Origin: Halobiforma lacisalsi AJ5
GTDB taxonomy: Archaea; Halobacteriota; Halobacteria; Halobacteriales; Natrialbaceae
Assembly: GCF_000226975.2 (NCBI RefSeq)
Contig: NZ_CP019285.1
Coordinates: forward strand, 1,426,001-1,490,000
Length of the DNA: 64,000 nucleotides
Direction of reading: 5' to 3'
Positions 8,826 through 13,569 of this stretch are shown one piece after another (the first letter of the stretch is position 1; the number at the start of each line of letters is the position of its first letter). A program made the position numbers and the translations under genes. The notes under the pieces are model-generated. The model made no database searches and was not told the origin of the DNA. It saw nothing but the letters and a program-made list of their open reading frames with translations.

Positions 8826-9974
8826 ATGGTCACGACCATCTCGCCCGACCGGCTCGCGGAGCTGATCGACGGGGACGAGGAGTTCGCGCTCGTCGATACG
8901 CGCCCGGCGGAGAGTTACGAGGCCTGGCGCGTTCCCGGGGCCAGACACTTCCAGTTCGGCCCCGAGGAGGACCTCGAGGAGAACGGGCAACTCGAGGACC
9001 TGCGCGAGGTCGTCGGGGACGCCGACCGGGTGATCGCCATCTGCGCGAAAGGGCTCTCGTCCGGCAACCTGGCAACGCAACTCGAGTCGGCGACCGACGA
9101 GTTCGACGCCCAGGCCGTCGACGGCGGGATGAAAGGGTGGAGCGGCGTCTACGATCGTGCCTCGATCGACGTCGACGACGGGCTGACGGTCGTTCAGGTC
9201 CAGCGTCGCGCGAAGGGCTGTCTCGGCTACGTGGTCGGCTGTGAACGCACGGGCGAGGCGGTCGTCGTCGATCCGACCGCCGACGGCGACGAGTTCGCGG
9301 TCGCCGCGGAGGAGGCCGGCCTCTCGATCGAGGGGGTGATCGACACCCACGTCCACGCCGATCACGCGTCCGGCGGGCGGGAACTCGCCGACGACCTCGG
9401 GGTCCCCTACTACCTCGGCGAGCGTGCCACGGAGCGCGACGTCGAGGTCGAGTTCACGCCCCTCGAGCGCAACGAGGTGCTCGCGGTGGGTGACCGCGAG
9501 GTGAAGGCGCTGGCCGCGCCGGGCCACACCAGCGAGATGATCAACCTGCTGGTCGACGACCGGGCGCTGTTGACCGCGGACACGCTGCACGTCGACTCGA
9601 CGGGGCGGACGGAACTCGAGTTCAGCGCAGACGAAGGGGAGGAGGGCGCGGAGATGCTCTACGAGACGCTCCACCGGACGATCCTCGCCGAACCCGAGTC
9701 GGTCGTCGTCCTCCCCGGCCACGTCACCGTCACCGAGTCGGGGGAGTTCGCCCACGGCTCGCCCGGCGAACCGATCACGACGACGATCAGGGACGCCCGG
9801 ACTGAGATCGACCTGCTCGACCTCGAGCGCGAGGCGTTCGTCGAGCGGATGGCCGACGCCGGGGAGAAGCCGGCCAACTACGAGGAGATCATCGACCGCA
9901 ATCGGGGTGCGCTCGAAATCGCACCGGAGGAACGGGTCGAACTCGAGATGGGGCCGAACAACTGCTCGGCCTGA
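8826..9974 (+). CDS. Rhodanese / metallo-beta-lactamase fusion (persulfide dioxygenase-like)
   Basis: 382 residues with two domains. The N-terminal rhodanese domain (about 1-115) has its active-site Cys73 in the loop ICAKGLSSG. The metallo-beta-lactamase domain (about 120-330) has HVHADH at 175-180 and GHTS with H234. The MBL part resembles ETHE1-type persulfide dioxygenases and glyoxalase II; the fused rhodanese favours oxidation or transfer of persulfide sulfur. ATG 8826 puts the rhodanese fold at the N-terminus, so I reject the upstream in-frame start. With DoxX divergent, a sulfur-detoxification locus is plausible but inferred. Confidence 0.87.
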   Translation: MVTTISPDRLAELIDGDEEFALVDTRPAESYEAWRVPGARHFQFGPEEDLEENGQLEDLREVVGDADRVIAICAKGLSSGNLATQLESATDEFDAQAVDGGMKGWSGVYDRASIDVDDGLTVVQVQRRAKGCLGYVVGCERTGEAVVVDPTADGDEFAVAAEEAGLSIEGVIDTHVHADHASGGRELADDLGVPYYLGERATERDVEVEFTPLERNEVLAVGDREVKALAAPGHTSEMINLLVDDRALLTADTLHVDSTGRTELEFSADEGEEGAEMLYETLHRTILAEPESVVVLPGHVTVTESGEFAHGSPGEPITTTIRDARTEIDLLDLEREAFVERMADAGEKPANYEEIIDRNRGALEIAPEERVELEMGPNNCSA

Positions 9975-11306: not shown

Positions 11307-11648
11307 TCACCGCGAGTAGGTCTCGAGGCGAACGATCCGTCCCTCCTCGAGTTCGAAGAAGTCGGCGAACTCGAACAGTTCGTCGGCGTCGCCTGGCCCT
11401 GCGGCCTCGAGGACGCGACCGCGGGCGGCGACTGCCGCCTCGTCGTTGGCAACGACCGAGCACAACTCGTGGCGCGTGTCCGGGTTCGGTCGTTCCTCGC
11501 GCATGAACCGGACGAACGAGGCCCGGTCCTCGAAGGTCCTGTCGGGTCTTCGCTGGACGAACTCGGGCGCAAGCACCGACTCGAGCGCCTCGTAGTCGTG
11601 GTCGTCGAGCGCGTCGTAGTACCGCCGAACGAGGGCAACCGGGTCCAT
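11307..11648 (-). CDS. SnoaL-like / nuclear transport factor 2 fold protein
   Basis: 113 residues: an N-terminal helix pair (VALVRRYYDALDDHDYEAL), a YxxxF-type core, and a curved sheet ending in EGRIVRLETYSR. This is the usual small SnoaL-like ketosteroid-isomerase fold. Such proteins bind small hydrophobic molecules or act as isomerases/hydrolases; no specific catalytic pair is clear. It is divergent from the Rieske fusion gene with 121 bases between the starts, so shared control is possible. Confidence 0.8.
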   Translation of the reverse strand: MDPVALVRRYYDALDDHDYEALESVLAPEFVQRRPDRTFEDRASFVRFMREERPNPDTRHELCSVVANDEAAVAARGRVLEAAGPGDADELFEFADFFELEEGRIVRLETYSR

Positions 11649-11725: not shown

Positions 11726-11765
11726 GCGTTCAGCGAACGCTTACACGACATCGCGTCGTGTGTAA
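11726..11765. promoter_or_regulatory. Two tandem palindromes before the Rieske gene
   Basis: GCGTTC-AGC-GAACGC (11726-11740) is a perfect inverted repeat. It is directly followed by TTACACGAC...GTCGTGTGTAA (11741-11765), an imperfect inverted repeat that ends 4 bases before the ATG. This looks like a double operator over the transcription start of the 11770 gene. Confidence 0.5.
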
Positions 11766-11769
11766 ACCT

Positions 11770-13569
11770 ATGGCAACAGCCGACGACTTCCACGAGGCCG
11801 TCCCGCTCGCGGACCTCGAGGAGAGCGGCCGCGAACTGACGAGCGTCGACGGGGTACCGATCGCCCTCTTCCACCACGAAGGGGAGGTCAGGGCGGTGAA
11901 CAACCGCTGTCCCCACATGGGGTTCCCGCTCGTCGAGGGCACCGTCGACGACGGGATCCTCACCTGCCACTGGCACCACGCCCGGTTCGAACTCTCCTGT
12001 GGCGACACGTTCGACCCGTGGGCCGACGACGTCCAGACCTACCCCGTTGAGGTGCGCGACGGAACCGTCTACGTGAACCCGAACCCGGTCCGGGAGCTGC
12101 CGCCCGAGGAGCACTGGGCCGACCGCCTCGAGACGGGGCTCGAGGAGAACCTGCGGCTGGTCGTCGCGAAGTCGACCATCGGCCTCCTCGACGCCGGCGT
12201 CGACTACCGCGAGCCGACCGCGCGAACCCTCGAGTTCGGCACCAAGTATCGGGACGCCGGCTGGGGTCGCGGGCTCACCGTCCTCGGCTGTATGGCGAAC
12301 GTGATCGACGACCTCGAGGAGAGGGACCGAAAGCGGGCGCTGTACACCGGTGTCCGGTACGTCGCGAACGACTGCGCCGGCGAGACGCCGAACTTCGACC
12401 AGCCGTCGCTGTCGACCGACGACGTCGGTTTCGACCGGCTCAAGTCCTGGTTTCGCGACTGCGTCGAGTTGCGCGACGCCGACGGCGCGGAACGCTGCCT
12501 GCGGACCGCCGTCGAGTCGGGCCGTTCGGAGGCCGAACTCGCGGAGATGGTCTTCGCGGCCGCGACGGATCACCCCTACCTCTCGGCCGGCCACGTCCTC
12601 GACTTCGCGAACACGGCCTTCGAGACGCTCGAACACGTCGGTGCCGAACACACCGCGGACGCCCTCGCGAGCCTCGTCGAGCCGCTCGTCACCGCCGACC
12701 GCAGCAACGAGCAGTCGGCGTGGCGACAGCCCGTCGACCTGGTCGCGCTCCTCGAGGACGTCTACGGCGGCGACGTCACCGAGACGAACGGGCTCGAGGA
12801 ACTCGCTCGCGAAGGGGACCGCGGGTCGTGGTCGCCCCCGGCCGACTTCCAGGCGACGCTGCTGGGGGACGACCCCGAGGCGATCGTCGACGCCCTGGCC
12901 GACGCAGTCCGGGCGGGCGCGACGACCGAGGACCTCGCCGCGGAGGTCGCTCACGCAGCCGCGACCCGGGTCGCGCAGTTCGGTACGGGGAACGAGTTCG
13001 GCGACTGGGACACCGTCCACCACACGTTCACCTACGCCAACGCGGTCCAGGGGGCGACCCGCCGAACCGACGCGATCGAACTCTACCGGGCCGTCTTCGA
13101 CGCCGCCGTGAGCGTCTACCTCGATCGGTTCCTCAACACGCCGCCCGCGCGGGTTCCCGAGCCCGGGGAGGACACCGGCCGCGACCCGGACGCCATTCGC
13201 GAGGACCTACTCGAGACGTTTGACGCGGACGGGGAGGTCAACCGTGCGGGTCGGCTGGTCGGGGAGTTCTTCGACTGCGGCGGCGACCCGGCGGCGCTGA
13301 AGCGGACGCTCGGGCACGGACTGCTGCGCGAGGACGCCGACTTCCACACCCTCCAGAACGTCGAGGCGGCGTTCCGGCGGTTCGACCTGGTCGAGGAGCG
13401 CCGATCCGAGGGCGAGAAACGGGAAGGCGTCGACCTCGATCGGCGCCGCCGGATCCCGCTGATCGCGACGGCTCGGTACATGGCCGCCCACTTCCCGACG
13501 CGACGGGAGGCAGAACAGACGTTCTCGATCGCGACGCGGCTCGGGCGGGGCGAACGGATCCACGAGTGA
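11770..13569 (+). CDS. Rieske [2Fe-2S] protein fused to His-bearing helical repeats
   Basis: 599 residues. The N-terminal Rieske domain (about 5-105) has cluster ligands C47/H49 (RCPHMGF) and C66/H69 (CHWH), as in soluble Rieske ferredoxins. The remaining 480 residues are helical and repetitive. Segments of the form H-x-(L/F)-x-x-(A/V)-(N/E) recur at H275, H418 and H526, and a weaker copy at about 170-180 lacks the His. Each is preceded by a helix rich in Ala and Glu (for example AVESGRSEAELAEMV, AVRAGATTEDLAAEV). The layout suggests an electron-fed metal or substrate site in the repeat domain. A questin-oxidase-like fold is one candidate, but I could not confirm it. The ATG at 11770 lies just behind two palindromes. 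Confidence 0.8.
   Translation: MATADDFHEAVPLADLEESGRELTSVDGVPIALFHHEGEVRAVNNRCPHMGFPLVEGTVDDGILTCHWHHARFELSCGDTFDPWADDVQTYPVEVRDGTVYVNPNPVRELPPEEHWADRLETGLEENLRLVVAKSTIGLLDAGVDYREPTARTLEFGTKYRDAGWGRGLTVLGCMANVIDDLEERDRKRALYTGVRYVANDCAGETPNFDQPSLSTDDVGFDRLKSWFRDCVELRDADGAERCLRTAVESGRSEAELAEMVFAAATDHPYLSAGHVLDFANTAFETLEHVGAEHTADALASLVEPLVTADRSNEQSAWRQPVDLVALLEDVYGGDVTETNGLEELAREGDRGSWSPPADFQATLLGDDPEAIVDALADAVRAGATTEDLAAEVAHAAATRVAQFGTGNEFGDWDTVHHTFTYANAVQGATRRTDAIELYRAVFDAAVSVYLDRFLNTPPARVPEPGEDTGRDPDAIREDLLETFDADGEVNRAGRLVGEFFDCGGDPAALKRTLGHGLLREDADFHTLQNVEAAFRRFDLVEERRSEGEKREGVDLDRRRRIPLIATARYMAAHFPTRREAEQTFSIATRLGRGERIHE

Follow-up and report, generated by a model that had tools for sequence, protein, structure and literature searches.

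A Rieske [2Fe-2S] domain fused to a helical domain remotely related to questin-oxidase-like dioxygenases in haloarchaea and bacteria

The locus described here encodes a Rieske [2Fe-2S] domain carried on the same chain as a large, repetitive helical domain. The gene lies in the window, by which we mean the whole 64,000-nucleotide stretch of Halobiforma lacisalsi AJ5 DNA that was analyzed (contig NZ_CP019285.1, positions 1,426,001 to 1,490,000), and is present in one copy in that genome (Table 1). An in-frame GTG at position 11758 is an alternative start, which would add 4 residues. The encoded protein consists of a ferredoxin-type Rieske domain and an all-helical domain of ∼490 residues. An earlier note, made from the DNA alone, had described a standard Rieske domain joined to a large C-terminal part, and this description holds: within the 599-residue protein, PF00355 matches residues 14 to 92 (E = 1e-14) and PF13806 matches residues 7 to 103 (E = 3.6e-10). 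The ligand motif, CPH(47-49)-x16-CHWH(66-69), fits the Rieske criterion CxH-x15-17-CxxH. By both sequence and fold, residues 7 to 103 most resemble the small Rieske ferredoxins that serve aromatic dioxygenases, with Foldseek TMt values of ∼0.9 against dioxygenase ferredoxins (0.90 for PDB entry 5bok).

Table 1. Features of the locus, in window positions
Feature	Position	Strand	Remark
SnoaL-like protein (PF12680)	11307..11648	-	Divergent neighbor; recurs beside the gene in 22 loci
Rieske/helical fusion gene, 599 aa	11770..13569	+	Start ATG
Rieske [2Fe-2S] domain, ferredoxin type, residues 7-103	11788..12078	+	PF00355, PF13806; Foldseek
Rieske cluster ligands C47, H49, C66, H69	11908..11976	+	Invariant wherever covered, both branches
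All-helical domain of putative catalytic type, residues 111-599, remotely related to questin oxidases	12100..13566	+	AlphaFold2; Foldseek; profile test
Degenerate repeat 1, G164-W-G-R167-G168 (GWGRG)	12259..12273	+	Column of the family's first His, which this protein has lost
H275, repeat 2	12592..12594	+	Aligns with BTG13 H158 (hhalign register)
H418, repeat 3, H-x-x-T motif	13021..13023	+	Aligns with BTG13 H296/T299
E521, possible new ligand	13330..13332	+	Invariant in the window's branch only
H526, repeat 4	13345..13347	+	Assigned to BTG13 H374
Q529	13354..13356	+	Invariant in the window's branch; BTG13 (K377) and the distant branch have Lys
H574, candidate replacement ligand	13489..13491	+	Near-invariant in the window's branch; the distant branch has mostly Pro

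Rieske proteins fill the best 50 Foldseek matches of the whole protein, and the C-terminal domain was therefore modelled separately. AlphaFold2 with a natural alignment gave a pLDDT of 92.4 for the whole protein; residues 111 to 599 alone reached a pLDDT of 94.6 and a pTM of 0.93, with an entirely helical predicted fold. The earlier note had proposed a Pfam/PDB profile search of residues 110 to 599, and this search, once run, returned no high-confidence known family: no family exceeded the cutoff in Pfam or NCBIfam, and neither single-sequence nor profile searches found a PDB sequence match. In our own reading of the helix list, the model appears to comprise four similar helical units, with the key residues (∼165 to 168, 275, 418, and 526) predicted to lie near the N-terminal part of the long third helix of each unit. 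The repeats that the note had proposed are real, given that profile-profile comparison of repeats 2 and 3 yields an E value of 7e-5. The remaining repeat pairs were undetectable by sequence, and repeats 1 and 4 are placed by the regular helix pattern of the model.

Queried alone against the PDB with Foldseek, the helical domain gave 8yxs_A as its best match (probability 0.99, E = 8.6e-3, 472 columns spanning nearly all of a 446-residue target), with a low TM-score of 0.34/0.37. This was the sole long credible match, the next long ones having probabilities of about 0.1. The 8yxs entry, named "Oxidoreductase AflY" in the PDB, groups by sequence with PaD (8z4q) and BTG13 (7y3w) in a single family (E values of about 1e-50), and both of these are in the questin-oxidase-like set reached from two PF14027 proteins (L103 and L104). 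The BTG13 and PaD structures themselves were absent from the best 50 matches of the helical domain, and a search against viral models gave nothing convincing. Part of the helical fold was also matched by C-terminal fragments of MgsA; the MgsA-like hints, together with carboxymuconolactone-decarboxylase-like ones, were dropped as short helical-repeat similarity.

Relatives of the fusion are numerous, with at least 579 in GTDB contigs. Among the sampled haloarchaea, 106 of 199 related genomes are carriers, as are 56 of 117 sampled from the order; Haloferax massiliensis and H. sulfurifontis are close carriers. When the C-terminal domain was used alone as the query, all full-length matches lay in open frames long enough to hold a Rieske domain, and the annotated bacterial homologue genes begin about 110 residues upstream of the match. 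Plasmid-borne bacterial relatives (Nostoc, Aulosira, Gloeothece, Paraburkholderia, Sinorhizobium, Microvirga, Metabacillus, and Priestia) share 38 to 45% identity across the whole C-terminal domain and are annotated, where at all, merely as "Rieske (2Fe-2S) protein." When the family tree is rooted on its distant branch (described below), the haloarchaeal sequences are nested among bacterial ones with cyanobacteria as neighbors (support, 1.0), as would be expected of a gene acquired from bacteria.

A few individual matches stand apart. One homologue, from a metagenome-assembled genome labelled as a proteobacterium (L071:6001-7737), groups with a haloarchaeon (L035) in the tree, a placement that reflects either late transfer or a binning error; its phylum-mates in the genome set are genomes of 3 to 11 Mb. 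The Halosimplex pelagicum homologue (L056:5464-7728) is split over two open frames near the equivalent of residues 442 to 445, possibly as a pseudogene or through a sequencing error. Of two weak extra matches (G141:C16 and G067:C34), that in G141 did not recur with the profile, and G067 was outside the profile set.

The members seen fall into two deeply separated branches, that of the window's protein and the distant branch. The three His residues named in the earlier note (H275, H418, and H526) are where it had placed them, and its expectation of conservation was borne out: they are invariant in 80 of 80 haloarchaeal sequences and in 8 bacterial sequences from cyanobacteria, Proteobacteria, and Bacilli, and they are also His in every distant-branch sequence that covers them. 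In the smaller alignment with the 8 bacterial sequences, D278, E314, D412, W413, E521, Q529, and H574 are likewise invariant. H574, which the note had not listed, is kept in 77 of the 80 haloarchaeal sequences. The degenerate copy that the note had recognized is repeat 1, best placed at residues 164 to 168. At the R167 column, members of the window's branch carry R, P, S, T, V, I, or E instead of His.

The distant branch of the fusion came to light in a profile search of the bacterial phylum of the L071 host, which matched 17 of 379 genomes, including L071 and two nearer relatives. All 10 distant-branch members examined for it are strong Rieske family matches; in one of the branch's members (L121:127-2478), an apparent GNAT acetyltransferase domain precedes the Rieske domain within a single open frame. 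In the distant branch, the R167, H275, H418, and H526 columns are all His, and the Q529 column is Lys, in every sequence that covers them (14/14 for the R167 column and 13/13 for the Q529 column), and the E521 and H574 columns hold mostly Pro (or Ala). The distant branch has all four family His residues and the window's branch three of the four.

This residue set is also that of the questin-oxidase-like proteins. In BTG13, iron is bound via four His residues and a carboxylated Lys, K377; from the alignments, the four would be H55, H158, H296, and H374, which are conserved in all covering sequences of our PF14027 set. At the K377 column, 12 of 20 sequences have Lys and 8 of 20 have Ser, and questin oxidase family proteins on rhizobial plasmids (L106 to L113) are among those with Ser; therefore, the Lys ligand is not universal even within PF14027. 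The spacings between successive His residues are typically ∼106, ∼137, and 74 to 112 in the distant branch versus 103, 138, and 78 in BTG13, and the two groups share H-x-x-T at the third His and H-x-x-K at the fourth.

Profile comparison with hhalign supported the same correspondence, with E values against PF14027 of 9e-4 for the distant branch and 4.5e-4 for the pooled family, and with His placed on His at positions one, two, and three. In block-shuffle controls, none of 200 shuffles did as well as the distant branch (score of 36.7 versus a shuffle maximum of 34.5) or the pooled family (31.8 versus 26.6). The window's branch alone scored weakly (22.3; shuffles, 20.1 at the 95% level and 23.5 at most). 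Early hhalign runs built on small profiles fell short of significance, and scanning for the motifs without gaps failed to recover the His register drawn by eye; that register was retained only once the distant branch and the larger PF14027 set supported it. The PF14027 HMM gave no match in 73 haloarchaeal members (among 25 listed of 28 weak families), 9 bacterial members, or 10 distant members, and haloarchaea and megaplasmids, when searched for PF14027, yielded no member. Profile and motif register mark the helical domain as a remote relative of the questin-oxidase-like non-heme iron dioxygenases, with the best fold match, at its low TM-score, pointing the same way, and we hold the fusion architecture and this kinship with considerable confidence. 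The protein is related to PF14027 rather than a formal member of it, and it is Rieske-oxygenase-like in layout while standing outside that family. The earlier note had suggested that the layout lacked a characterized precedent. This view stands as far as our literature search reached, in that no link between Rieske and questin oxidase proteins and no haloarchaeal study of the fusion was found, and the fusion protein is to that extent uncharacterized; it does not extend to the helical domain, for which PF14027 supplies known remote relatives.

Gene neighborhoods differ between lineages, and no dedicated reductase adjoins the fusion gene. In Natrialbaceae, the fusion gene and the SnoaL-like gene diverge, and tsr3 follows the fusion gene; any link between the SnoaL-like neighbor and the function of the fusion is uncertain. 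The homologue in several other haloarchaea adjoins dnaJ or dnaK, or sits between both on the opposite strand (L053, L057, L063, and L069), and on Halorussus and Haladaptatus plasmids (L090 and L091) it directly precedes the ribonucleotide reductase alpha and beta genes. Short-chain dehydrogenases/reductases (SDRs) and alpha/beta hydrolases recur near the homologue in several bacteria, and rhizobial PF14027 genes are also flanked by SDRs. In fungal questin cleavage, an NADPH reductase is paired with the dioxygenase and first makes the hydroquinone that the latter attacks (PMC9890505). Operon inference is weak, as the fusion gene is usually alone. Elsewhere in the window, positions 8826 to 9974 encode a fusion of rhodanese and metallo-beta-lactamase domains, with a layout like that of persulfide dioxygenases.

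Taken as a whole, the protein is probably a Rieske-fed non-heme metal oxygenase built on a helical scaffold unrelated to that of classic Rieske oxygenases; its metal, ligands, electron transfer, and substrate are what we infer as follows. The N-terminal Rieske cluster would be reduced by a ferredoxin or reductase whose gene lies elsewhere and would pass the electrons on to a mononuclear metal center (most likely iron) inside the four-repeat helical domain, which would share ancestral stock with the questin-oxidase-like ring-cleaving dioxygenases. The His-bearing repeats likely form the metal site, with H275 of repeat 2, H418 of repeat 3, and H526 of repeat 4 as candidate ligands. The first family His and the Lys are missing in the window's branch, and therefore its putative metal site must differ from that of BTG13; H574 and/or E521 may complete it in their place. 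O2 would be activated at the metal and a small substrate oxidized, probably one that is aromatic or quinol-like.

Several other readings bear on this proposal. The protein could instead be a redox sensor or regulator, in which the Rieske and helical domains act as a switch or electron-transfer scaffold and the His residues, with no part in catalysis, coordinate zinc or shape a pocket for a ligand. In many haloarchaea that are not Natrialbaceae, the gene adjoins dnaJ, dnaK, or both, as might be seen for a stress-linked gene, the oxygenase family's first His and its Lys are gone, and the MgsA fragments that match part of the fold are not oxygenases. We nevertheless regard a sensor as rather unlikely: internal H, E, D, W, and R residues are strongly conserved across phyla in the manner of an active site, the neighbors elsewhere are oxidoreductases and hydrolases, and the distant-branch relatives retain the complete oxygenase ligand set. 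A somewhat less probable reading keeps the questin-oxidase chemistry and changes the role of the cluster, which would hold a hydroquinone/quinone substrate reduced or re-reduce iron after idle turnovers, without supplying catalytic electrons. In questin cleavage, once the quinone has been reduced to the hydroquinone, opening of the ring needs only O2, with both oxygen atoms retained (PMC9890505). On the other hand, the Rieske domain is fused in all full-length members seen of both branches, which suggests that electrons are needed in every cycle.

The likeness to questin oxidase might also be convergence of helical repeats, with the domain a separate fold bearing its own, possibly dinuclear, site made of H275, H418, H526, H574, E521, D412, and E314. 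The low TM-score and the invariance of the branch-specific carboxylates E521, D412, and E314 are in keeping with this. We consider it improbable, as the order, spacing, H-x-x-T, and H-x-x-K of the distant branch all agree with PF14027 and the profile score was unmatched by shuffles. Finally, a Rieske N terminus followed by a larger domain is what a classic ring-hydroxylating oxygenase with a diverged catalytic domain would have, and the fold contradicts that assignment, which we think very improbable indeed. The classic catalytic domain has an alpha/beta helix-grip fold; the C-terminal model here is entirely helical, no classic Rieske oxygenase is in its Foldseek match list, and no Ring_hydroxyl_A-type domain with a 2-His-1-carboxylate site was matched in the protein at E ≤ 10. 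The note's statement that the C-terminal part is unlike that domain is in agreement with these results.

A bolder, evolutionary reading is one that we offer more tentatively and at a little short of even confidence: Rieske clusters would have been joined a second time to non-heme iron oxygenase chemistry, here on a questin-oxidase-type scaffold, and the haloarchaeal, cyanobacterial, and bacterial branch would have rebuilt the metal site through loss of the first His and the Lys and gain of H574 and E521, giving a new class of self-contained Rieske oxygenases in which the metal is coordinated in a new way. To our knowledge, Rieske clusters power mononuclear iron oxygenases with one catalytic fold only. 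A second, unrelated fold on the same electron carrier would amount to a new enzyme class, and this candidate spans more than 500 archaeal and bacterial loci that are annotated only as Rieske (2Fe-2S) proteins. Both the addition of an electron supply to a ring-cleaving dioxygenase scaffold and the remodelling of its metal site would be directly testable.

Among known systems, several resemble the fusion. Its Rieske domain is of the same sequence type and fold as the Rieske ferredoxins (naphthalene dioxygenase ferredoxin, 2qpz; 3-nitrotoluene dioxygenase ferredoxin, 5bok; and T4moC), but those are separate small electron carriers, whereas here the domain is fused in cis. The C-terminal helical domain of MgsA (PF12002) resembles one helical repeat (8g28; TMt, 0.71), and PF12002 matches 11 of 73 members with a best E value of 3.6e-4; the match spans only ∼110 residues and is one of local fold. 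The PF14027 proteins (BTG13, the hydroquinone dioxygenase PaD, and AflY) include the best PDB match of the all-helical domain (AflY, at a low TM-score) and share with the fusion conserved His residues in the same repeat order at similar spacing, with H-x-x-T at the third; H-x-x-K at the fourth is shared with the distant Rieske-fused branch. Unlike the fusion, the PF14027 proteins inspected are without a Rieske domain, and the window's branch differs further in its absent first His, its Gln for Lys, its new invariant H574/E521, and its place below detection by the PF14027 HMM. The alpha subunit of classic Rieske oxygenases likewise carries a Rieske [2Fe-2S] cluster in cis with a mononuclear non-heme metal domain, which in the fusion is putative. 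The catalytic domain of the fusion is all-helical and unrelated, and its Rieske domain is nearer to the stand-alone dioxygenase ferredoxins, but the logic by which electrons are fed to the metal would be the same.
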